Notes: generated by a model from the sequence alone, not told the origin. Counted from the stretch's first letter, positions 3,342 through 41,853 are shown. The stretch is 64,000 nucleotides of DNA from Halorubrum ruber (GCF_018228765.1 NZ_CP073695.1:2713218-2777217); one strand, 5' to 3'. A program made the numbers and translations.

Positions 3342-4586
3342 ATGCAAGATCTCGTTCAGGACGCCCTCGACAACGCGGAGGCGGAGAAGCGCGACATGGA
3401 TGACGTCGACATGGGCGACGACGAGTTCGGGGACCCCCGGATCGTCATCGTCGGTGCCGGCGGCGCCGGGAACAACACGGTCAACCGGCTGTACAACATC
3501 GGCGTCGACGGCGCCGACACCGTCGCCATCAACACGGACAAACAGCACCTCAAGATGATCGAGGCCGACACCAAGATCCTCGTGGGTAAGTCGCTCACGC
3601 AGGGGCTCGGCGCCGGCGGCGACCCCAAGATGGGCGAGCGTGCCACCGAGATGGCTCAGGGCACGATCAAGGAGGTGCTCGGCGACGCGGACCTCGTCTT
3701 CGTCACCGCCGGGATGGGCGGCGGCACGGGCACCGGCGCGGCGCCGGTCGTCTCGAAGATCGCCAAAGAGCAGGGCGCCATCGTCGTCGGGATGGTCTCG
3801 ACGCCGTTCAACGTCGAGCGCGCCCGCACGGTGAAGGCCGAGGAGGGGCTCGAGACCCTGCGCAACGAGGCCGACTCGATCATCGTCCTCGACAACAACC
3901 GCCTCCTCGACTACGTCCCGAACCTGCCGATCGGGAAGGCGTTCTCCGTGATGGACCAGATCATCGCGGAGACGGTGAAGGGGATCTCGGAGACGATCAC
4001 CCAGCCGAGCCTCATCAACCTCGACTACGCGGACATGTCGACGATCATGAATCAGGGCGGCGTCGCGGTCATGCTCGTCGGCGAGACCCAAGACAAGAAC
4101 AAGACCCAAGAGGTGGTCAACGACGCGATGAACCACCCGCTGCTCGACGTCGACTACCGCGGCGCCTCGGGCGGGCTCGTCCACATCACGGGCGGCCCTG
4201 ACCTCACGCTGAAGGAGGCCGAGGGGATCGCGAACAACATCACCGAGCGGCTGGAGGCGAACGCCAACGTCATCTGGGGCGCTCGCATTCAGGAGGAGTA
4301 CAAGGGGAAGGTACGCGTCATGGCGATCATGACGGGCGTCCAGAGCGCGCAGGTGCTCGGTCCCTCGACCCAGAAGCAGGCGGACAAGTCGCGCGCCGCG
4401 GCCGGCGGCGAGGACCTCGGCGACTCGCGCCAGCGGGCGGCCGAGGCGAACGACGCCGCGGGCGGCGCGGGCGCCGCGGGCGACAGAGGCGAGCCGGCGG
4501 TCTCCGGCGGCACCGACCACGGCTGGGAGTCCGACGGCGGCAGCGACCCGATCGAGAAGAACAACGGGCTCGACGTCATCCGCTGA
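3342..4586 (+). CDS. ftsZ2: Cell division protein FtsZ2
   Basis: A tubulin-superfamily GTPase of 414 residues that forms the cytokinetic ring. After an acidic N-terminal tail, the nucleotide-binding fold starts at [20 protein letters not shown] (residues 31-50). The tubulin signature GGGTGTG is at residues 126-132, and the catalytic T7 loop region follows ([18 protein letters not shown]). The C-terminus has a Gly/Ala/Asp-rich linker and a short conserved tail ending GLDVIR. Haloarchaea have FtsZ1 and FtsZ2; the cdrS partner and sequence character identify FtsZ2, the paralogue needed for constriction. It is translated just after cdrS from the same mRNA. In Haloferax volcanii ftsZ2 (HVO_0581) and ncsA (HVO_0580) are neighbours, from memory; here about 8 kb separates them. 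Confidence 0.97.
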
Positions 4587-4617
4587 GCGTCTCGCGACCG
4601 CTGCGGTTCGGTTCCAA

Positions 4618-4673
4618 TTCCGTTTTCCATCGGTACTGGTTCGCTTTCGGTTCCGTTTTCCATCGGTACTGGT
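4618..4673. repeat. Pair of 23-bp direct repeats downstream of ftsZ2
   Basis: TTCCGTTTTCCATCGGTACT plus GGT occurs at 4618-4640 and again at 4651-4673. The repeats lie in the gap between ftsZ2 and the dehydrogenase gene and include T-runs that could terminate transcription. No gene is visible in this gap. Confidence 0.6.
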
Positions 4674-4806
4674 CCGACCCGCGCACGGCGCGAGGACTTA
4701 ACATCACACGGTCCGTGGAGACCTACGTGTCACGTCACCAGCCGAGCCGGGGGACGCGGCGTCGCTCCGTCGCCGTCCGCGGTCGAGCCAGATTCGCGAC
4801 GACACG

Positions 4807-5886
4807 ATGACCGACGCGGCGCTCTACTTCACGGGTCCGGAGACCGTCGAGGTGCGGGAGACGTCGGTCGGCCCGCCGGACGCAGACGAACTGCTCGTCG
4901 GCACCCGGGCGTCGGCGATAAGCGCCGGGACGGAGCTGCTCGTGTACCGCGACCAGACGCCCGACGGTCTCCCGGCCGACGAGACGCTCGACGCGCTCGA
5001 CGGCGACCTCTCGTACCCCCTCCAGTACGGGTACGCCGCGAGCGGGGTCGTCAGCGAGGTCGGCGCGGACGTCGACCCGGAGTGGGTCGGTCGGTCGGTG
5101 TTCTCGTTCGTCCCCCACCAGACGAGCTTTCGGACCACCCCCGACTCGGTGGTCGCGCTCCCGCCGGGGACGACGCCGGCCGTCGGGTCGCTCCTCCCCT
5201 CGGTCGAGACCGCGACGAACATCGTCCTCGACGCCGCCCCTCGGCTCGGGGAGCGGGTCGTGGTGTTCGGCGCCGGCGTGATCGGGCTCTGCGTCACCCG
5301 ACTGCTGGCCGCGTTCCCGCTGGAGTCGCTCGTCGTGGTCGACCCGGTCGAGCGTCGTCGGGCCCTCGCGGCGTCGTTCGGCGCCGACCGGACGACGACG
5401 CCGGCAGCTCTCGACGACGACGCCGACGCGGGCCTCGGCGGTTCGGACGCCGCGCTCGACGACGCCGGCTCGGACGCCCACCTCCGCGACGCCGGCTCGG
5501 ACGCCGCGCTCGACGACGCCGACCTCGCGGTCGAACTCTCCGGCCAGCCGAGCGCCCTCGACGACGCGCTCGGCGTCGTCGGCTACGACGCGCGGATCGT
5601 CGTCGGGTCGTGGTACGGCACGAAACGCGAGCCGATCGGGCTCGGGGGGCGGTTCCACCGGGACCGCATCGACATCGTCTCCAGCCAAGTGTCGACGATA
5701 AGCCCCGAGCTCCGGGGGCGCTGGGACCGCGACCGACGCATGGACGCGGCGCTCGAACGGCTCGACCGGGTCCCCGCCGACGAGCTGATCACCCACCGGA
5801 TCCCGTTCGAGCGCGCGGCGGAGGCGTACGAGCTGCTCGACTCGGCGGCCGACGAGACGGTACAGGTGATCTTGGAGTACGAGTGA
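4807..5886 (+). CDS. Medium-chain (zinc-type) alcohol dehydrogenase family protein
   Basis: A protein of 359 residues with a GroES-like N-terminal fold and a Rossmann nucleotide-binding domain (VVVFGAGVIGLCVTRLLAAF, with an acidic Asp after the second strand, so NAD preference is likely). It lacks the usual cysteine cluster of a structural zinc site. An insertion at about residues 207-240 is a low-complexity repeat of GSDAALDDA-type units, expanded at DNA level. It probably oxidises or reduces an alcohol or polyol; the substrate cannot be read from sequence. It converges with the CDP-alcohol phosphatidyltransferase gene 14 bases downstream, and such a dehydrogenase may supply a polar head group for it (inference). 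Confidence 0.85.
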   Translation: MTDAALYFTGPETVEVRETSVGPPDADELLVGTRASAISAGTELLVYRDQTPDGLPADETLDALDGDLSYPLQYGYAASGVVSEVGADVDPEWVGRSVFSFVPHQTSFRTTPDSVVALPPGTTPAVGSLLPSVETATNIVLDAAPRLGERVVVFGAGVIGLCVTRLLAAFPLESLVVVDPVERRRALAASFGADRTTTPAALDDDADAGLGGSDAALDDAGSDAHLRDAGSDAALDDADLAVELSGQPSALDDALGVVGYDARIVVGSWYGTKREPIGLGGRFHRDRIDIVSSQVSTISPELRGRWDRDRRMDAALERLDRVPADELITHRIPFERAAEAYELLDSAADETVQVILEYE

Positions 5887-5899
5887 ACGGCCGCCGCGG

Positions 5900-6670
5900 T
5901 CACCGGCGGTTGGAGAGGCGTCCGCTGACAAAGAGGTAGTCGCGGGTAAACACCGCCAGCGACGGGAGCAGGACGACGGGCGCGACGGTCCGCACGAGTT
6001 CCGTCGGGACCGGCGGGACGAGCGCGACCGTCACGAACACCATCTGGACGCCCGCGAGGTACTTTCCGAGGTCGCTGTCGGGGAGGTCGCCGACGGGGAG
6101 CCCGCGGACGCGGCGCAGCCACACGGCGCCGCGGAAGACGTAGCGCGCGGCGGAGATCGAGAGGTACCAGACCGGCAGCAGCCCCCACAGCACCGCCACC
6201 AGCGGCGCGGCGACGAACCCGAAGGTGTCGAACGCCATGTCGAGCCGGCGGCCGATATCGGTCTCCCGGCCCACCGTCCGGGCGAGGGTCCCGTCGAGGT
6301 TGTCGAGCGCGACGCCGGTCCCGTAACACAGCGCCGGCACCCACGCGAGCGACGTCCCCGGCGGGACGACCGCGAACCCGGCGACGACGGCGTACAGCGC
6401 CCCCCGAGCGAGCGTGACCGCGTTCGCCAGCCCGAACAGCCGCCGCCAGAACCCCCCGGCCAGCCGCTCCGGGTCGAGCCGGTAGCCGACGTACCAGAGC
6501 TGTCCGGCCCAGCAGCCGCCCGCGACGACGGCGGGAGAGAGCCCCCACCGGCCGGTCGCGTCCATCGGAAACAGCCGGAACAGGAGCGCGGCGAGCGCGA
6601 CCGCGGCGACGAGCGGGAGCCCGACGCCGACCCCGACGCGGAGGGAGCGCCGCTGCCGTACGCCGGCCAT
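5900..6670 (-). CDS. CDP-alcohol phosphatidyltransferase family membrane protein
   Basis: A polytopic membrane protein of 256 residues. The family signature DGx2ARx8Gx3Dx3D is complete: D126, G127, A130, R131, G140, D144 and D148, with D123 just before. These aspartates bind two metal ions and catalyse transfer of a CDP-linked lipid to an alcohol acceptor, as in archaetidylinositol phosphate or archaetidylglycerol phosphate synthases. About six hydrophobic segments are seen. The lipid acceptor is unknown. Its neighbours (dehydrogenase, sulfatase-like, glycosyltransferase) suggest a modified membrane lipid or surface glycan. Confidence 0.9.
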   Translation of the reverse strand: MAGVRQRRSLRVGVGVGLPLVAAVALAALLFRLFPMDATGRWGLSPAVVAGGCWAGQLWYVGYRLDPERLAGGFWRRLFGLANAVTLARGALYAVVAGFAVVPPGTSLAWVPALCYGTGVALDNLDGTLARTVGRETDIGRRLDMAFDTFGFVAAPLVAVLWGLLPVWYLSISAARYVFRGAVWLRRVRGLPVGDLPDSDLGKYLAGVQMVFVTVALVPPVPTELVRTVAPVVLLPSLAVFTRDYLFVSGRLSNRR

Positions 6671-6744
6671 CTACCCGTCACCTCCGGTGTCGGCGACCCC
6701 GGCGGCGCGCCCGCACCGCGGTCGGCGCTTCCGAGTCGACACGG

Positions 6745-7131
6745 CTATCGGCGGAGCAGGGCGACCAGCACGGCGATCAACACGACCTGTGCGATCTTGT
6801 CGACGGCGCCGAGCGTCCCGACGTCGGCCGGGAACGACTTCCCCCCGCCCGCGAAGTTGAAGACGTACCACAGGACGATCTGGACGAGCGTGAAGGGGAT
6901 CCCGACGGCGTACACCGCCCGGCGGCGGTAGTCGAGCAACACCAGCACGACCGCTCCGAGGAAGCCGAATCCGGCGAGAAGGAAGCTGACCCGAAGCGGC
7001 AGCGGGAGCCCCCCGACGCCGAGGCGGATGTGGACGGCGGCGGTGATCAGCGCGGCGGCGATGCCTACCCAGTGGAGGCCGCTCAGCGACCCGACGTCTA
7101 TCCCCGGCCCTTGTGATTCGGTCGTTGCCAT
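6745..7131 (-). CDS. Small four-helix membrane protein, haloarchaeal, unknown function
   Basis: A protein of 128 residues with four predicted transmembrane helices, starting near LHWVGIAAALITAAVHI, VSFLLAGFGFLGAVVLVLL, VYAVGIPFTLVQIVLWYVF and VDKIAQVVLIAVLVALL. The reading frame extends upstream to 7341, but that part is Arg-rich and overlaps the next gene antisense. The start MATTESQGPG at 7131 is acidic and haloarchaeal in style and is taken. No catalytic motif is visible. It lies about 75 bases upstream of the CDP-alcohol phosphatidyltransferase gene on the same strand and may be co-transcribed. Confidence 0.75.
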   Translation of the reverse strand: MATTESQGPGIDVGSLSGLHWVGIAAALITAAVHIRLGVGGLPLPLRVSFLLAGFGFLGAVVLVLLDYRRRAVYAVGIPFTLVQIVLWYVFNFAGGGKSFPADVGTLGAVDKIAQVVLIAVLVALLRR

Positions 7132-7193
7132 ATCACACAGACGGGCTTCACTCACAAAGAAATACCGCCGGTGTCCGATCGGCACCGACCGTC

Positions 7194-9173
7194 TCACCGC
7201 TCGAAGTCGGGGTCTCGAAGGGCGTCGATTCGCGCGATCTCGTCGTCGGTCAGCCGCTCGCTCCCGGCCGCCAGGTTCGAGACGACGTGCGACTCGGCGG
7301 TGCTCGACGGGATCGGGACGACCCCCTGCGAGGCGTTCCACGCGATCACGACCTCAGCCGGCGAGAGCTCCCGCTCCGTCCCGATCGCGTTCAGGTCGGG
7401 CTCGTCGAGGAGGCCGGGCGCCGACAGCGGCGAGTGCGCGACCACCCGGATCCCTCGCTCGTGACAGAACTCGACCAGATCGTTCCGGGGGCGATAGGGG
7501 TGTCGCTCCACCTGGACGAGCGCAGGGTCGACCGTCCCCGCTTCCAGGACCGTCTCCAACTGCGCCCGCGAGACGTTACAGATCCCGAGCGTCCGCGCCC
7601 ACCCCCTGTCGTGAACGGCCTCCAAGTTCTCCCACGCGGTCGCGAGCGACACGTCGGCGGTCGCGGGCTCGCCGTCCGCGCCCTCGGGGAAGGTGAGCGC
7701 CTCCTGCCGCTCGACCGGCTCCTCGGCGAGCCGGCGAAGCTCGCCCCGGTGGTCGAGCGCCGAGGGCCAGTGGAGCGCGTAGCAGTCGAACGCGTCGATC
7801 CCGAGCTCCTCGCGGCTGCCCGCGCAGGCGGCGAGCAGGTGCTCGCGGCGGTGGTTCGTGCGCCACGCCTTCCCGAGGAGGAACACGCGCTCGCGGTCGG
7901 GTGCGCCCGGCGCGGCGAGCAGCTCCCCGATCCGGTGTTCGTTGCCGTACAGCTCGGCTGAGTCGAGGAGGCGGTAGCCGGCGTCGAGCGCGGTCGCGAT
8001 CGAGTCGGCGCGCTCGACGTACTCCCCGTCGCGGTAGCGCGAGCAGCCGAAGCCGACGGCGGGGAGTCGGAGCGCGCGCGGGCCCGACTCTGTCTCTCCT
8101 CCAATCTGCTTCTCCGGCCGCACCACCGGCGCCGGCGGCGGGTCGGCGGTCGCGCCGCAGTCGTCGACCGCGACCGGGCCGTCGCCTTCGGCGGCCGTCT
8201 CGATCGCGTTGCAGACGGCGACGACGTGGGCGCCCCGACGTCCCCCCGCCCGCGACGGCGACCCGGCCTCGACCGTCGCGGCGAGGCGCTCGACCGCGTC
8301 GACGTACTCGTACGGTTCCGCGGGCGCGTCCGGCGGCGCGCTCACGTACTCCCGGCCGACGCGGCCGAACCGGACGTGATCGCGGCCGGTCTCCATCGCG
8401 CCGGTCCCCTTCAGGTACAGCGAGCCGTCGTCGCCGTGGAGCTCCAGCCCGTAGAACTCCCGGCTCCGGTGGGGGGCGTAGAAGCTGGCCGTGAGTCTGA
8501 CGGTCGGCCCCGCCGCGAACGCGAGCGTCGCCTCGACGTGGCTCGGCGTCGACGGCCGCCGCTCCTCCCGGGCGGGCCAGACGTCGAGGGCGTCGGCGAC
8601 GCGGACGCGCTCGACCGGCCCGAACCACGAGACGAGGAGCGCGAGGGGGTACACCGCCCCGTCGTACAGCGGCCCGATCTCGAGGAAGGAGTCTGGCCGG
8701 TCGTGCCAGTCGGTGACGCGGCCGACGTGGGCGTGGGCGTACCCCAGCCCCACCGGCCCGAGCCGGCCGTCGGCGAGGAGTCGGCCCGCGCGGCGCTGCG
8801 AGGGCGCTCGCGGCGTCCCGGGCGCGCAGCCGAGGGCGAGTCCGCGGTCGCGGGCGAGCGCCACCAGCGACCGCGCCTCGTCGGCGTCGAGCGCGAGCGG
8901 CTTCTGCGAGTAGACGTGGCGGTCCGCTTCGAGCGCGGTCCGCGTCACCGGCGCGTGGGCCGCGTGGCTCGTCAGGTTCACGACGAGCGGCGCGTCGACG
9001 CGCTCCAGCGCGGTCTCCAGGTCGGCGAACGACGGGCAGCCGTGGTCCGCGGCGAGGGCGGCGGCGCGGTCGGCGTCGAGGTCGACGACGCCGGCCAGCG
9101 ACAGCGAGCTCTCCGGCAGGCCGGCGGCGTACTCGGGCGCGATCGCCCCCGCGCCGACGAGCAGGCAGTTCAC
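7194..9173 (-). CDS. Fusion: Gfo/Idh/MocA dehydrogenase plus aldo/keto reductase
   Basis: A protein of 659 residues with two complete oxidoreductase modules. Residues 1 to about 350 are a Gfo/Idh/MocA dehydrogenase: an N-terminal Rossmann motif (LLVGAGAIAPEYAAGL), then SQKPLALDADEARSLV with the family's catalytic Lys-Pro. Residues about 365-655 are an aldo/keto reductase with its tetrad: Asp and Tyr in LLDSAELYGNE, Lys in LLGKAW and His in YALHWPS. PIPSS near the C-terminus is the NADPH-binding region. A Pro-rich linker joins them. The fusion suggests that a sugar or polyol is processed by two coupled redox steps. The start ATG at 9173 begins with a typical dinucleotide fold (MNCLLVGAGA). The substrate is unknown. 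Confidence 0.88.
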   Translation of the reverse strand: MNCLLVGAGAIAPEYAAGLPESSLSLAGVVDLDADRAAALAADHGCPSFADLETALERVDAPLVVNLTSHAAHAPVTRTALEADRHVYSQKPLALDADEARSLVALARDRGLALGCAPGTPRAPSQRRAGRLLADGRLGPVGLGYAHAHVGRVTDWHDRPDSFLEIGPLYDGAVYPLALLVSWFGPVERVRVADALDVWPAREERRPSTPSHVEATLAFAAGPTVRLTASFYAPHRSREFYGLELHGDDGSLYLKGTGAMETGRDHVRFGRVGREYVSAPPDAPAEPYEYVDAVERLAATVEAGSPSRAGGRRGAHVVAVCNAIETAAEGDGPVAVDDCGATADPPPAPVVRPEKQIGGETESGPRALRLPAVGFGCSRYRDGEYVERADSIATALDAGYRLLDSAELYGNEHRIGELLAAPGAPDRERVFLLGKAWRTNHRREHLLAACAGSREELGIDAFDCYALHWPSALDHRGELRRLAEEPVERQEALTFPEGADGEPATADVSLATAWENLEAVHDRGWARTLGICNVSRAQLETVLEAGTVDPALVQVERHPYRPRNDLVEFCHERGIRVVAHSPLSAPGLLDEPDLNAIGTERELSPAEVVIAWNASQGVVPIPSSTAESHVVSNLAAGSERLTDDEIARIDALRDPDFER

Positions 9174-9287
9174 GGTCGTACCGAGGCGGCGAGACGTATA
9201 GGTGTCCCGACGGCGGCGGGGCGTCGCCGGAGGCGACGGTGGCGCTCCCGCCGGAGCGGTTTAGTCGCCTCGCGCCAACTCACGGTC

Positions 9288-10178
9288 GTGACGGAGCCGG
9301 GCATGGGCCGCCTCGGGACCGCCTACCTGCGCGGGCTACAGGCGATCGGTCGGCGGCTCGACTACGGGACGAACGCCTTCGACCGCGAGTGGGACGTCCT
9401 CGTCGTCCTCGACGCCTGTCGGGCCGACCTGCTGCGCTCGGTCGCGCCCGACTTCGAGTTCCTCGGCGGGGTCGAGACGGTCCGGTCGGTCGGGAGCTCC
9501 TCCTCGGAGTGGTTAGAGAACACCTTCGTCGGCCACCCCGAGACGGCGCGGACCGCGATGGTCACCGGAAACACGTGGACCGACCGCTACCTCGACGCCG
9601 ACGCGTTCGCCGCACTCGACGAGGTGTGGAAGTACGCGTGGGACGAGGAGGCGGGAACCGTGCCGGCCGCGGCCGTGACGGACCGGGCGATCGCGCTCGC
9701 CCGCGAGCGCGACCCCGACCGGCTCGTCGTCCACTACATGCAGCCGCACCACCCCTTCGTCCCGGACCCCCTCGACGGCGACGACGGGCTGGCGCGGACC
9801 GGGAGCCACAGCAACGCGGGGAACCCGTGGGTGCTGCTCCGACGCGGCGAGGTCTCGGTCGAGCGCGTCTGGACGGCGTATGAGGCGAACCTCCGACACG
9901 TCCTCGGCGAGGTCGAGTCCCTCGCGGCGAACGTCGACGGGCGGATCGCGGTCACCGCCGACCACGGCAACTGCTTCGGCGAGTGGGGGCTGTACGGCCA
10001 CCCGATGCACACGCCCGTCCCCGCGCTGCTCGCGGTCCCGTGGTCGACGGTCGACGGCGCGGACGAGGGGACGCGCGAGCCGACCCTGACGCCGCCCGAG
10101 CCGCTACCGGTGTCGTGGGTCCACGGCGACGGGGACGAGACGGACCGGGACCGGCTGCGCGCGCTCGGCTATTTATAA
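9288..10178 (+). CDS. Sulfatase-like / alkaline phosphatase superfamily hydrolase
   Basis: About 296 residues. VLVVLDACRADLL is the metal-binding start of the sulfatase fold. VVHYMQPHHPF and AVTADHGNCFGEWGLYGHP carry the other metal ligands (the DHG motif). Members act on sulfate or phosphate esters or transfer phospho-head groups. There is no signal peptide, so it is probably cytoplasmic. Two starts are possible: GTG 9288 (VTEPGMGRLG) and ATG 9303. I chose 9288 because a TTTAGT box lies about 27 bases upstream near 9260. The frame extends back to 8226 only as a shadow of the gene on the other strand. It begins a plus-strand group with the PTPS-like, glycosyltransferase and methyltransferase genes. 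Confidence 0.85.
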   Translation: MTEPGMGRLGTAYLRGLQAIGRRLDYGTNAFDREWDVLVVLDACRADLLRSVAPDFEFLGGVETVRSVGSSSSEWLENTFVGHPETARTAMVTGNTWTDRYLDADAFAALDEVWKYAWDEEAGTVPAAAVTDRAIALARERDPDRLVVHYMQPHHPFVPDPLDGDDGLARTGSHSNAGNPWVLLRRGEVSVERVWTAYEANLRHVLGEVESLAANVDGRIAVTADHGNCFGEWGLYGHPMHTPVPALLAVPWSTVDGADEGTREPTLTPPEPLPVSWVHGDGDETDRDRLRALGYL

Positions 10179-10249
10179 AAAGCGCCGACGCGTCGAACGT
10201 CCTTCCGCCGCCCTCCGGCTTTAGGTTGCTCGCGCCCGTGGATCGGTTC

Positions 10250-10627
10250 ATGTACGCGACGACGGTGCTGACGGACTTCGTGGCCCAGCACTACCTCACG
10301 GTCGTCGACGAGGGGCCCGAGAGCGTCCCGCACTCACACCACTTCGAGGTGGAGCTGACCTTCCGCGGCCCCGAGCTGAACGAGCACGACTACCTCGTCG
10401 ACATCGACGACGCCGAGGCGGCGCTGGCCGACCTCGCCGACCGCTACCGCGACGAGCTGCTCAACGACCTCCCCGAGTTCGAGGGGGACAACCCGAGCGT
10501 CGAGCGCTTCGCTCGCGTCGTCTTCGAGCGCGTGACCGACGCGGTGACCGACGACGCGGTGAACGAGCTGGCCGTGACGGTCTGGGAGGACGACGCGGCC
10601 GCCGCGACCTACGACGCGCCGGTATGA
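10250..10627 (+). CDS. 6-pyruvoyl-tetrahydropterin synthase (PTPS/QueD) family protein, non-canonical
   Basis: A protein of 125 residues with the T-fold of the PTPS family. Three zinc-ligand histidines are recognisable: one in DFVAQHYL and two in HSHHFEVEL. NPSVERFARVVFERV corresponds to the usual PTAEN helix, and LAVTVWED to the pterin-anchoring strand. No cysteine is present, so the catalytic Cys of true PTPS and QueD is missing and the reaction must differ. The stop overlaps the glycosyltransferase start by 4 bases (ATGA), so they are translationally coupled. A CTTTAG box about 30 bases upstream supports the start. The role in this cluster is unknown. Confidence 0.85.
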   Translation: MYATTVLTDFVAQHYLTVVDEGPESVPHSHHFEVELTFRGPELNEHDYLVDIDDAEAALADLADRYRDELLNDLPEFEGDNPSVERFARVVFERVTDAVTDDAVNELAVTVWEDDAAAATYDAPV

Positions 10628-11733
10628 GGGTCGGGCTCGCGCTGTACGGCAGTCTCGACGAGCGGTCGGGCGGGTTCCGCTACGACCGGAAGCTCGTCGA
10701 GGGGCTCCGCGCGGCCGGCGACGCCGTCGAGGTCGTCGAGCTCCCGTGGCGGGCGTACCCGCGCGGGCTGCTGGACAACGCGCTCCCGGGGGTCCGCGAC
10801 CGCCTCCGCGTCGACGTCGACGTGATGCTCCAAGATGAGCTCGCGCACCCCTCGCTGTTCCTCGCCAACCGCGACCTGCCGTACCCGGTCGTGAGCGTCG
10901 TCCACCACCTACGCGCGAGCGAGCCGCGCCGGCTCTCGCCGCTGTACCGCGCCGTCGAGCGCCGCTACCTCGCGACCGTCGACGGCGTCGTCTGTAACAG
11001 CGCGGCGACCCGCGACGCTGTCGCCGCCCTCGGGGTCGATCCCGCGGCGACCGTCGTCGCGCCGCCCGCCGGCGACCGGTTCGACCCCGCGATCGACGAC
11101 GACGCGATCGCGGCGCGGGCCGCGTCGCTCGACGGTCCCGACCCCGACCCGCTCCGCGTCGCGTTCGTCGGCAACGTCGAGCCGCGGAAGGGGCTCGACA
11201 CGCTCGTCGAGGGGGTCGCCCGCGCCGACGCCGCCGTCGACCTCACGGTCGTCGGTCGGGCGGTCGACGAGTCCCACGTCGCCGACGTGCGGCGGCTGGT
11301 CCGGGAGCGGGGGCTCGGCGATCGGGTGCGCTTCGCCGGCCGGCTGTCGGACGCCGAGCTGGCCGACGCGCTCCGCGGGAGCCACGTCCTCGCCGTCCCC
11401 TCCCGGTACGAGGGGTTCGGGATCGTCTACTTAGAGGGGATGAGCTTCGGCCTGCCGGCGATCGCCTCCAGTGCGGGCGGCGCGAGCGAGACGGTCGCCG
11501 ACGGCGAGACGGGCGTCCTCGTCGACCCGGACGACCCGGCCGCCGTCGCCCGCGCGCTCGACGGATTCGCGGCCGACCCCGACCGGCTCGCCGAGATGGG
11601 CCGCGCCGCGAGGCGTCGGTACGAGCGCCACCCGGACTGGGAGGAGACGACGGCCCGCGTCCGCCGGCTCCTCGCCGGGGTCGCCGACGCGCCCGACGCC
11701 GTCGACGCGGCCGAGCCGGAGGTGACGACATGA
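10624..11733 (+). CDS. Glycosyltransferase, GT4 family
   Basis: A retaining GT-B glycosyltransferase of 369 residues. The N-terminal acceptor domain starts MRVGLALYGSLDERSGGFRY. The donor domain contains VAFVGNVEPRKGLDTLVEGV and the GT4 signature SRYEGFGIVYLEGMSFGLPA, where the two Glu of the EX7E motif bind the nucleotide-sugar. It would transfer a sugar from a nucleotide donor to a lipid, glycan or small molecule. Both junctions are ATGA overlaps (with the PTPS-like gene before and the methyltransferase gene after), so all three are one translational unit. The substrate is not known. Confidence 0.92.
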   Translation: MRVGLALYGSLDERSGGFRYDRKLVEGLRAAGDAVEVVELPWRAYPRGLLDNALPGVRDRLRVDVDVMLQDELAHPSLFLANRDLPYPVVSVVHHLRASEPRRLSPLYRAVERRYLATVDGVVCNSAATRDAVAALGVDPAATVVAPPAGDRFDPAIDDDAIAARAASLDGPDPDPLRVAFVGNVEPRKGLDTLVEGVARADAAVDLTVVGRAVDESHVADVRRLVRERGLGDRVRFAGRLSDAELADALRGSHVLAVPSRYEGFGIVYLEGMSFGLPAIASSAGGASETVADGETGVLVDPDDPAAVARALDGFAADPDRLAEMGRAARRRYERHPDWEETTARVRRLLAGVADAPDAVDAAEPEVTT

Positions 11734-12731
11734 CGGGAGACGGTGACGGCCCTCCGGAGGCCGGCGACGACGCCCTCGCCGCCGACACCGCCGCCTTCCG
11801 GCGCTACCTCCGGGCGAAGCAGAGCGTCGACGACCGGGCGCTCGACCGGCGGCTCCTCGGGATCCTCCGCGAGCGGCTCGCGGAGCGGGCCGTCGCGACC
11901 GAGGGGCCGCTCCGCGTCTTGGAGGTCGGCGCCGGCGTCGGGACGATGGTCGCCCGGCTGATCGACTGGGAGGTGCTCCCGCCGGGCGAGACGCGGTACG
12001 TCGCGGTCGACCGCGACCCGGACGCGCTCGCCGGGCTAGGTCCCTTCCTCCGGGAGTGGGCGGCGGAACGAGACGCACCGACGTCCATCGACGATGGCGG
12101 CGACGACGACGCGCTCGTCGTCGAGACCGACGCGCGCACGGTCAGGGTCGAGCCCGTCGCCGCCGACGCGCCCGCGTACGCCGCGGCCCACGCGGGCGAG
12201 TCCGACGCGCTGATCGGGATGGCGCTACTGGACGTGCTCGGGCTCGACCGGCTCGATCCGCTGCTCGACGCGCTTGCGCCCGGCGGGACCTACTACTTCC
12301 CGATCACCTTCGACGGGGCGACCCGGTTCCGCCCGGCACGTCCCGACGATCGGGAGGTGGAGCGGCTGTACCACCGTCACATGGACGAGAAGCCGGGCGG
12401 GAACAGCCGCGCCGGCGGCGCCGCGCTTGCGCGCCTGCGCGAGGCGGACGGCTCGACGCTCCTCGGGGCCGCCGGCTCCGACTGGATCGCGCGTCCCGCC
12501 GACGGCGAGGCGGGCTATCCGGGCGACGAGGCGTTCTTCCTCCGACACATCCTCGACACCGTCGAGGCCGCGGTCGGCGAGGTGATCGCCGACGGGGGTG
12601 AGACGGGGTCCGTCTCGGCCGACGACCTCGACGCGTGGCTCGAGATTCGCCGCGGACAGGTCGATTCCGGGACGCTCGTCTACCTCACCCACCAGCTCGA
12701 CCTCATCGGTCGCGTCGACGACGACGCGTGA
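11730..12731 (+). CDS. Class I SAM-dependent methyltransferase
   Basis: A protein of 333 residues. Motif I, LRVLEVGAGVGTMVARLID, and the following acidic strand (YVAVDRDPDALAG) define the S-adenosylmethionine site. GMALLDVLGLDRLDPLLDALAPGGTYYFPITFDG matches the post-I motifs of Rossmann methyltransferases. It overlaps the glycosyltransferase stop by 4 bases. It presumably methylates the product of that cluster, perhaps a glycoconjugate; this is inferred from the operon. It converges with ncsA 45 bases downstream. Confidence 0.88.
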   Translation: MTGDGDGPPEAGDDALAADTAAFRRYLRAKQSVDDRALDRRLLGILRERLAERAVATEGPLRVLEVGAGVGTMVARLIDWEVLPPGETRYVAVDRDPDALAGLGPFLREWAAERDAPTSIDDGGDDDALVVETDARTVRVEPVAADAPAYAAAHAGESDALIGMALLDVLGLDRLDPLLDALAPGGTYYFPITFDGATRFRPARPDDREVERLYHRHMDEKPGGNSRAGGAALARLREADGSTLLGAAGSDWIARPADGEAGYPGDEAFFLRHILDTVEAAVGEVIADGGETGSVSADDLDAWLEIRRGQVDSGTLVYLTHQLDLIGRVDDDA

Positions 12732-12776: not shown

Positions 12777-13790
12777 TCACGTCGCCGCCTCGATCGACTC
12801 CAGCAGCCGGCACTTCCGACAGACGTCGCGGCTCGTCTGCGAGCCGCAGCGCTCGCACTCGCGGAGGCCGGAGTCGTCGCCCTCGCCGCCGGCGTCCCCC
12901 TCGTCGCCTTCGTCGTCCTCGTCGCTCCCGCGGTACGCCTCGGCCGCGAGCGCGGAGAGCTCCTCGTAGCCGGCCATGATCGAGTGGCGCGCGCCGGGGT
13001 GGTTCTCCTCCAGCTCGTGGATCGTCGACTGGATCTCGCCGCGGTACGCCTCCTCGGCGTGGGGGCACTCGGCCATGTGCGTGGGGAGGTCGCGGACGTG
13101 ACAGTACAGGGCGATCTCCTTTTCGGGCACGTCGCGGAGCGGCTTGGCGCGCGGGACGAACGCGTCGGTGGCTTCGCGCTCGTCGAACGGGCCGAGCGAG
13201 GCGTCGAAGTGTTTCGCGACCTGCCGCACGTCGCCTTCGAGGAAGTTCATCATCGCGGTCTGCGCCTCGTCGTCGAGGTTGTGGCCGGTGAGCAGCTTGT
13301 CGGCGTCGAACTCGGCGGCGTAGTTCTCGAGGAGGTCGCGGCGGAACACGCCGCAGTACGCGCAGGCGGCCATGTCCTCGGGGTCGTCCTCGACGACGTC
13401 GTCCATCCGCACGTCGAACTCCTCCTCGTAGGAGACGAGCTCGTGGCGCAGCGAGAGCTCGTCGGCGAGCTCGACGCAGGCGTCGACGCTCGCGTCGCGG
13501 TACCCCTCGATCCCCTCGTGGATCGTGAGAGCGAGCATCTCGACGCGGGGGTCCTTCCCGAACACGTCGTCTAAGATCCGCGTCAGGGCGACGCTGTCTT
13601 TCCCGCCGGAGAGCCCGATCACCCAGCGATCCGGGTCGTCGGGCGTCGCGTCCGGGTCGAGGAGGCCGTCCTCGCGGACCCGACGCTTCACGCGCTTCTC
13701 GACCGACTGCCGGAGGTGGTGGCCGCAGAGGTGCGCCCCGGAGTAGGCGGCGTGGTGGATCGCGTCGCTCCCGCACTTGTCGCACTCCAT
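12777..13790 (-). CDS. ncsA: tRNA 2-thiolation protein NcsA (Ncs6/TtcA family)
   Basis: A PP-loop ATPase of 337 residues that adenylates tRNA wobble uridine for sulfur transfer. The N-terminal zinc motif is MECDKCGSDA...LCGHH, the PP-loop SGGKDS is at residues 61-66, and CAYCGVFRR plus GHNLDDEAQT complete the family pattern. A C-terminal zinc finger (CERCGSQTSRDVCRKC) follows an acidic linker. The open frame continues upstream to 13997 through the 57-bp repeat array, giving a false N-terminal extension with 19-residue repeats; MECDKCG at 13790 is the true start. In Haloferax the homologue works with the ubiquitin-like SAMP2. The repeat-array TATA boxes upstream could contribute to its transcription (inference). 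Confidence 0.95.
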   Translation of the reverse strand: MECDKCGSDAIHHAAYSGAHLCGHHLRQSVEKRVKRRVREDGLLDPDATPDDPDRWVIGLSGGKDSVALTRILDDVFGKDPRVEMLALTIHEGIEGYRDASVDACVELADELSLRHELVSYEEEFDVRMDDVVEDDPEDMAACAYCGVFRRDLLENYAAEFDADKLLTGHNLDDEAQTAMMNFLEGDVRQVAKHFDASLGPFDEREATDAFVPRAKPLRDVPEKEIALYCHVRDLPTHMAECPHAEEAYRGEIQSTIHELEENHPGARHSIMAGYEELSALAAEAYRGSDEDDEGDEGDAGGEGDDSGLRECERCGSQTSRDVCRKCRLLESIEAAT

Positions 13791-13868
13791 CGGTGTCCGG
13801 TTGCGGTCGCGCGGGGATACCCGTTTCGGGCCGAGACGATCTAATTGGCGGCTTCGTCGACGCGAGCG

Positions 13869-41109: not shown

Positions 41110-41853
41110 TCACCATCCCGCGTCGAGGTCCTCGACGAGCGCGCCGAGGATCTCGCGGGTCGTCGCGGCGACGATCGGTTCGAGCGCGTCCGGGTCGCTG
41201 TTCGTCGGGTCGCCGAGCCCGCCTAACTCAGTCACCTCGTCGAAGTACTCGTAGCTCCGCGTGCGGGGCATCTCGGCGGCCTCCTGCGGCTCCTTCTTCT
41301 CCGTCCGCACGAGGTCCGGGCGGTACAGCTCGACGAAGCTCGTCTCGTGGTCGCCGGCGTGGCCCCACCCCTCACCGTACGCCTCCTCCAGATCCTCGCG
41401 CGCGAAGTCGGTCCAGTGAACGAAGTGGACCGTGAGGTCGGTGTCGCGGCCGAGCCGGTCGGCGGCGACCGACAGCGGCTCCCGGTTCCCGCCGTGGCAG
41501 TTCACGATGAGCAGTCGGTCGGCGCCGTGTTCGACAATCGACTCGCCGATCTCGCGGATCACGTCGACGTACGTCTCGGTCGAGAGGGTGATCGTCCCCG
41601 GGAACCGCATGTGGTGTTCCGACTGCCCGTACGGCAGCGTCGGGAGCCGCAGCAGGTCAAGGTCGAACTCGTCGGCGGCGTCGACGAGCTCGGCGGTGAG
41701 GTGGTCCGCGCGGAGCGTGTCGGTCGACACCGGGAGGTGCGGGCCGTGCTGCTCGATGCTGCCGGTCGGGAGGACCGCGAAGTCGGCGTCGTCGATCGCG
41801 TCCCCCGCCTCTTCCCACGTCATGCCGAACAGGTCGGCGTCCGTCTCGGGCAT
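41110..41853 (-). CDS. Creatininase-family amidohydrolase
   Basis: A protein of 247 residues. LPTGSIEQHGPHLPVSTDTL, LPYGQSEHHMRFPGTITLS, IVNCHGGN and GHAGDHETS are the metal-binding motifs of the creatininase family, including the two catalytic metal sites. Archaeal members include ArfB, the deformylase of riboflavin and F420 synthesis, so that is one candidate role; MftE-like or other amidohydrolase functions are alternatives. It stands alone, with no cofactor genes nearby. Confidence 0.88.
   Translation of the reverse strand: MPETDADLFGMTWEEAGDAIDDADFAVLPTGSIEQHGPHLPVSTDTLRADHLTAELVDAADEFDLDLLRLPTLPYGQSEHHMRFPGTITLSTETYVDVIREIGESIVEHGADRLLIVNCHGGNREPLSVAADRLGRDTDLTVHFVHWTDFAREDLEEAYGEGWGHAGDHETSFVELYRPDLVRTEKKEPQEAAEMPRTRSYEYFDEVTELGGLGDPTNSDPDALEPIVAATTREILGALVEDLDAGW

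Follow-up and report, generated by a model that had tools for sequence, protein, structure and literature searches.

The window analysed here, a 64,000-nucleotide stretch of the Halorubrum ruber genome (GCF_018228765.1 NZ_CP073695.1:2713218-2777217), carries a block of genes between ftsZ2 (3342–4586, + strand) and ncsA (12777–13799, − strand). All of the genes named are open frames, and the features of the block are the following.

4680–4735, +: presumed promoter upstream of the dehydrogenase gene, beginning GACTTAACATCACACGGTCCGTG, a conserved stretch common to block-carrying genomes
4807–5886, +: MDR-family dehydrogenase (MDR), nearest solved relatives sugar-alcohol dehydrogenases
5900–6670, −: CDP-alcohol phosphatidyltransferase (CDP-OH-P), Pfam E 1e-14, with the full catalytic motif
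about 6745–7131, −: DUF7475 protein of ~128 aa, E 5e-12
7194–9173, −: Gfo/Idh/MocA oxidoreductase–aldo/keto reductase (AKR) fusion in one 659-aa frame, accessory
9288–10178 (alternative ATG at 9303), +: weak alkaline-phosphatase (AP)/sulfatase-superfamily protein, Pfam Sulfatase E 0.005, under the curated cut-off
10250–10627, +: PTPS-like T-fold protein without cysteine; zinc His triad kept, catalytic Cys replaced by Glu and catalytic His by Asp
10624–11733, +: GT4 glycosyltransferase, in ATGA overlap with the PTPS gene, homologous to the bacterial cluster GT4 (E 1e-62)
11730–12731, +: class I SAM-dependent methyltransferase (MT), in ATGA overlap with the GT4 gene, profile match to the bacterial cluster MT (E 2.5e-30)

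The gene set that the first-pass annotation had reported between ftsZ2 and ncsA is present in full and in the order it gave, and the ATGA overlaps described as joining the PTPS, GT4 and methyltransferase genes are real, at 10624 and 11730. All genes on that earlier list stand; the DUF7475 gene had been overlooked. The window methyltransferase gives no Pfam match by itself. The stretch upstream of the MDR gene, presumably its promoter, is conserved among the genomes that carry the block. Two adjacent 33-nt repeats also lie between ftsZ2 and the MDR gene, at 4605–4670.

Comparison of ftsZ2 and ncsA positions across 145 Halobacteria genomes bears out the earlier suspicion of an insertion. In 10 of the 16 genomes of the genus the two genes are spaced by 66–208 bp, whereas five carry a block of ~8.2 kb between them and one is split across contigs; outside the genus, ftsZ2 and ncsA lie less than 1 kb apart in 100 of 129 genomes. 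The block is an insertion of ~8.2 kb, and a search for direct or inverted repeats of at least 20 nt marking its ends found none. The PTPS and GT4 genes of the window nest with genes from other families (f3, f4) and its MDR gene belongs to a different lineage, so that the block looks, from these sequence relationships, horizontally acquired and mosaic.

Proteins of the MDR type are annotated elsewhere as 'zinc-binding alcohol dehydrogenase', and the closest PDB counterparts of the window MDR are sugar-alcohol dehydrogenases. The window protein is 359 aa long compared with 339–341 aa in its closest relatives, lengthened by an acidic Asp/Ala-rich insertion within which repeats 27 nt apart occur at 5419–5521. 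The CDP-OH-P motif, DNLDGTLAR-x8-GRRLDMAFD, is a complete DxxDGxxAR-x8-GxxxDxxxD, intact also in three bacterial cluster members, and profile comparison shows the protein to be homologous to the bacterial cluster gene (probability 99.9). The AP/sulfatase-like protein scores 16.6 bits against a curated 25, its single-sequence model reaches a pLDDT of only 35, and its homology between archaea and bacteria is not clear by profile comparison, which gives a weak match (41 %) to the bacterial sulfatase-like protein.

The PTPS-like protein, whose structure is confidently predicted (pLDDT 91.5), has as its best PDB match, both by sequence (E 7e-7) and by fold (TM 0.89), the PTPS homologue SCO6650 of Streptomyces coelicolor (3d7j), followed by QueD (TM 0.77). 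With QueD/6-pyruvoyltetrahydropterin synthase (COG0720) it shares the T-fold, three zinc histidines and the ring-binding, pterin-anchoring Glu, the histidine triad being invariant in all 40 haloarchaeal sequences. Unlike QueD, however, the haloarchaeal members have replaced the catalytic Cys of the QueD/PTPS-I motif CxxxHGH by Glu (40/40, the motif there reading HSH) and the position of catalytic His71 by Asp (39/40), while that of Asp70 is mostly Arg; the window protein falls below the QueD cut-off at 46 versus 89 bits. A protein very similar to SCO6650 belongs to a cluster in S. fungicidicus, the species from which the neighbourhood is taken rather than from S. coelicolor, and the bacterial cluster members read HGA, part of the zinc site being lost, so that their reaction may differ from that of the archaeal members. 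As the haloarchaeal proteins keep HSH, and are about 25–30 % identical to the SCO6650 type, they are best described as relatives of this type and not as plain members of it. SCO6650 itself is reportedly unable to catalyse the PTPS reaction.

Across Halobacteria, PTPS homologues are found in 88 of the 145 genomes, and the MDR gene occurs in 86 of these 88 as against 0 of the 57 genomes that have no PTPS (Fisher 1.6e-38), a pairing shown to be near-obligate. Neighbourhoods were compared in 40 loci fetched from the 145 genomes, where the same genes are again neighbours in nearly all cases, at unrelated genome positions: MDR in 35, MT in 31, GT4 in 30, DUF7475 in 26, CDP-OH-P in 25, ArfA in 18, MocA in 13, AKR in 12, and the AP-like gene in 10. 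The recurring core comprises MDR, Cys-free PTPS, GT4, MT, and CDP-OH-P. Since only three of the 40 loci adjoin ftsZ2, the grouping is not produced by the local site. DUF7475 was discarded as a possible marker of co-inheritance, since its family is present in several copies in many genomes. In one close relative (genome G038, locus L061) the PTPS gene is matched as two overlapping pieces in different frames, which may reflect a broken gene or a misassembly; a second, ArfA-linked cluster (L062) is present in the same genome.

Relatives of MDR and PTPS were also found by protein searches of plasmid records, and the order MDR-PTPS-GT4-MT occurs in Methylosinus, Streptomyces fungicidicus, Rhizobium, Thiodictyon, and Microbacterium, spanning Alpha- and Gammaproteobacteria as well as Actinobacteria, with a Rhodobacteraceae plasmid carrying MDR-PTPS-MT. 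In the species genomes of GTDB the bacterial PTPS has at least 574 relatives, of which the closest 80 were analysed together with six plasmid loci; the same order recurs in most of those 80. Within these 86 loci, MDR is present in 84, MT in 81, GT4 in 74, RibD_C in 63, CDP-OH-P in 46, RibA in 43, and a sulfatase-like gene and cytochrome b in 41 each. Profile comparison of archaeal with bacterial PTPS, MT, CDP-OH-P, GT4, and MDR returns homology at probabilities of 98.6–100. A PTPS copy on a Streptomyces anthocyanicus plasmid has no such cluster genes among its annotated neighbours, and not every PTPS copy is therefore clustered. Had the genes come together by chance, they would be expected scattered elsewhere among unrelated neighbours; the opposite was found when the 40 haloarchaeal and 86 bacterial loci were checked, the same neighbours recurring in nearly all of the former and in most of the latter. 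Chance grouping is thereby rejected, in agreement with the first-pass annotation, and the cluster is well supported as one unit.

The genes that accompany the cluster give the best lead to its function and point to its precursor. In at least 32 of the 88 PTPS-bearing haloarchaeal genomes, GTP cyclohydrolase III (ArfA) lies within 6 kb of PTPS. In Haloarcula GH36, MocA, CDP-OH-P, GTP cyclohydrolase, MDR, PTPS, and MT form one run. The bacterial loci instead carry GTP cyclohydrolase II (RibA), which is unrelated to ArfA, along with the RibD_C reductase or a creatininase-type formamidase; the S. fungicidicus cluster, for example, combines MDR-PTPS-GT4-MT with CDP-OH-P, creatininase, and ribA, and creatininase is also found in three haloarchaeal cluster loci. 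SCO6655, a GTP cyclohydrolase II, is reported to release the formamidopyrimidine. From the recurrence of non-homologous GTP cyclohydrolases beside the cluster in two domains, we infer that ring-opened GTP is the precursor. The association is partial, a cyclohydrolase being present in the fetched stretch of 18 of 40 haloarchaeal loci (ArfA) and 43 of 86 bacterial loci (RibA) and absent from about half or more. Where ArfA is the sole copy, it must serve riboflavin too. In Sinorhizobium, a creatininase-family protein is a formamidase acting on the same ring-opened intermediate (PMC9478397).

The argument about the precursor rests on genomes other than that of the window. The only GTP cyclohydrolase III locus of this genome (G000:C1:997815-998527) is about 1.7 Mb from the block and unlinked to it, and the family match is split, 997815–998390 covering profile positions 1–189 and 998396–998527 covering positions 192–235 in another frame. 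Searches by tblastn with two ArfA proteins break at the same point, and the gene thus appears frameshifted, through either a sequencing error or a genuine break. Deletion of arfA renders Haloferax volcanii auxotrophic for riboflavin (PMC8305020), which makes a sequencing error plausible. The genome has an ArfC-type RibD_C reductase and three creatininases. A creatininase-family gene that possibly encodes a formamidase lies in the window itself, at 41146–41823 on the − strand (G000:C1:2754363-2755040).

Taken together, these associations favour, with modest confidence, a portable biosynthetic cluster shared by haloarchaea and bacteria that turns ring-opened GTP into a glycosylated, methylated, and perhaps lipid-linked pyrimidine or pterin. 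In the first step a type III cyclohydrolase in archaea, or a type II enzyme in bacteria, would open the ring of GTP and so yield a pyrimidine ribonucleotide of the formamido or diamino form, which a creatininase-type formamidase would deformylate where needed. The RibD_C reductase would then reduce the sugar chain of the pyrimidine intermediate and the MDR dehydrogenase oxidise the resulting polyol chain, after which the PTPS-like protein may bind the pyrimidine or pterin ring through its conserved Glu and rearrange or cleave the side chain, a Glu perhaps serving in place of the usual catalytic Cys in the archaeal form. GT4 would add a sugar, the methyltransferase would cap the product, and CDP-OH-P would probably make it a lipid head group by joining it to CDP-archaeol or CDP-diacylglycerol. 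For the window's own genome this scheme requires a cyclohydrolase acting in trans and encoded by the apparently frameshifted gene. The order of the steps and the reactions assigned to MDR, PTPS, GT4, MT, and lipid transfer are drawn from the enzyme families.

The enzyme set fits the products suggested earlier, a modified glycolipid, a head group or a pterin-linked sugar, both the product and its attachment to lipid being hypothetical. Linkage is incomplete for the enzymes on which these last steps would depend, CDP-OH-P being near in 25 of the 40 loci from haloarchaea and in 46 of the 86 from bacteria, and GT4 in 30 of the 40 haloarchaeal loci. A more specific proposal is speculative and considered rather doubtful, namely that both domains open GTP with unrelated enzymes and make from it a new glycosylated pyrimidine or pterin that is anchored to lipid and perhaps serves as a redox cofactor in the membrane; the redox role is suggested by the cytochrome b gene that neighbours the cluster in 41 of the 86 bacterial loci (six from plasmids and the 80 closest among 574 or more).

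The same PTPS fold, the Glu conserved at the pterin-anchoring position, and the presence of GT4 and methyltransferase within the operon would also suit a soluble pterin glycoside, made by PTPS and GT4 from an ordinary pterin of the kind that GTP cyclohydrolase I/IB provides for folate or archaeosine, with ArfA and RibA serving riboflavin only. Cyanobacteria make pterin glycosides at high level (PMC13259868), and the likeness to the present cluster would lie in the pairing of a pterin-type ring with a glycosyltransferase. The present cluster, however, keeps company with GTP cyclohydrolase II or III and CDP-OH-P; the recurrent partners include RibD_C and creatininase, at least 12 of the at least 32 ArfA-linked haloarchaeal genomes have a second ArfA copy elsewhere in addition to the one at the cluster, and a soluble product leaves CDP-OH-P unexplained. 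Such a glycoside consequently appears unlikely.

An equally improbable alternative dispenses with GTP altogether, MDR, MocA-AKR, GT4, MT, and CDP-OH-P making and attaching a rare sugar or polyol as a surface-glycan or glycolipid cluster, with the PTPS-like protein recruited to a sugar reaction. MocA-AKR, AP-like, LPG_synthase_TM, FkbM, and sulfatase-like genes are indeed frequent neighbours, the PTPS has neither the canonical catalytic Cys nor the His, and the window's own block has no adjoining cyclohydrolase, its distant arfA looking frameshifted. A surface-glycan function nevertheless fails to account for the retention of the pterin-binding Glu, or for the fact that the cluster is accompanied by RibD_C and by GTP cyclohydrolases from two families without common origin.

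Modification or salvage of a flavin or deazaflavin precursor is very unlikely: ArfA, RibA, RibD_C, and creatininase are enzymes of the riboflavin branch, and such support was once suggested for some COG0720 members, PTPS-IV being said to act in F420 synthesis (an unpublished claim cited in PMC5041015), but no RibB, RibH, RibE or cof genes occur among the annotated neighbours of the regions read, and the 57 of 145 Halobacteria that have neither PTPS nor MDR nearly all keep ArfA, which makes the cluster dispensable for riboflavin. Its relation to the archaeal branch ArfA-ArfB-ArfC is one of frequent proximity to ArfA, whereas no lumazine or riboflavin synthase is seen among its annotated neighbours.

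A literature search, for which subscription papers were mostly out of scope, found no paper describing the cluster; a review of COG0720 recognises subfamilies of unclear function (PMC5041015). Through the cluster, SCO6650, proteins annotated as 'zinc-binding dehydrogenases', and CDP-alcohol transferases, from hundreds of species, are tied into a single pathway, whose product can be sought in hosts such as haloarchaea, rhizobia, and Streptomyces. If the precursor has been assigned correctly, two domains feed one pathway by non-homologous GTP-opening enzymes. The automatic annotation '6-carboxytetrahydropterin synthase / queuosine' is unsafe for the PTPS-like cluster proteins. The H. ruber genome has a second match to the PTPS family, at G000:C1:2319251-2319619, which is presumably queD and contains one in-frame TGA.
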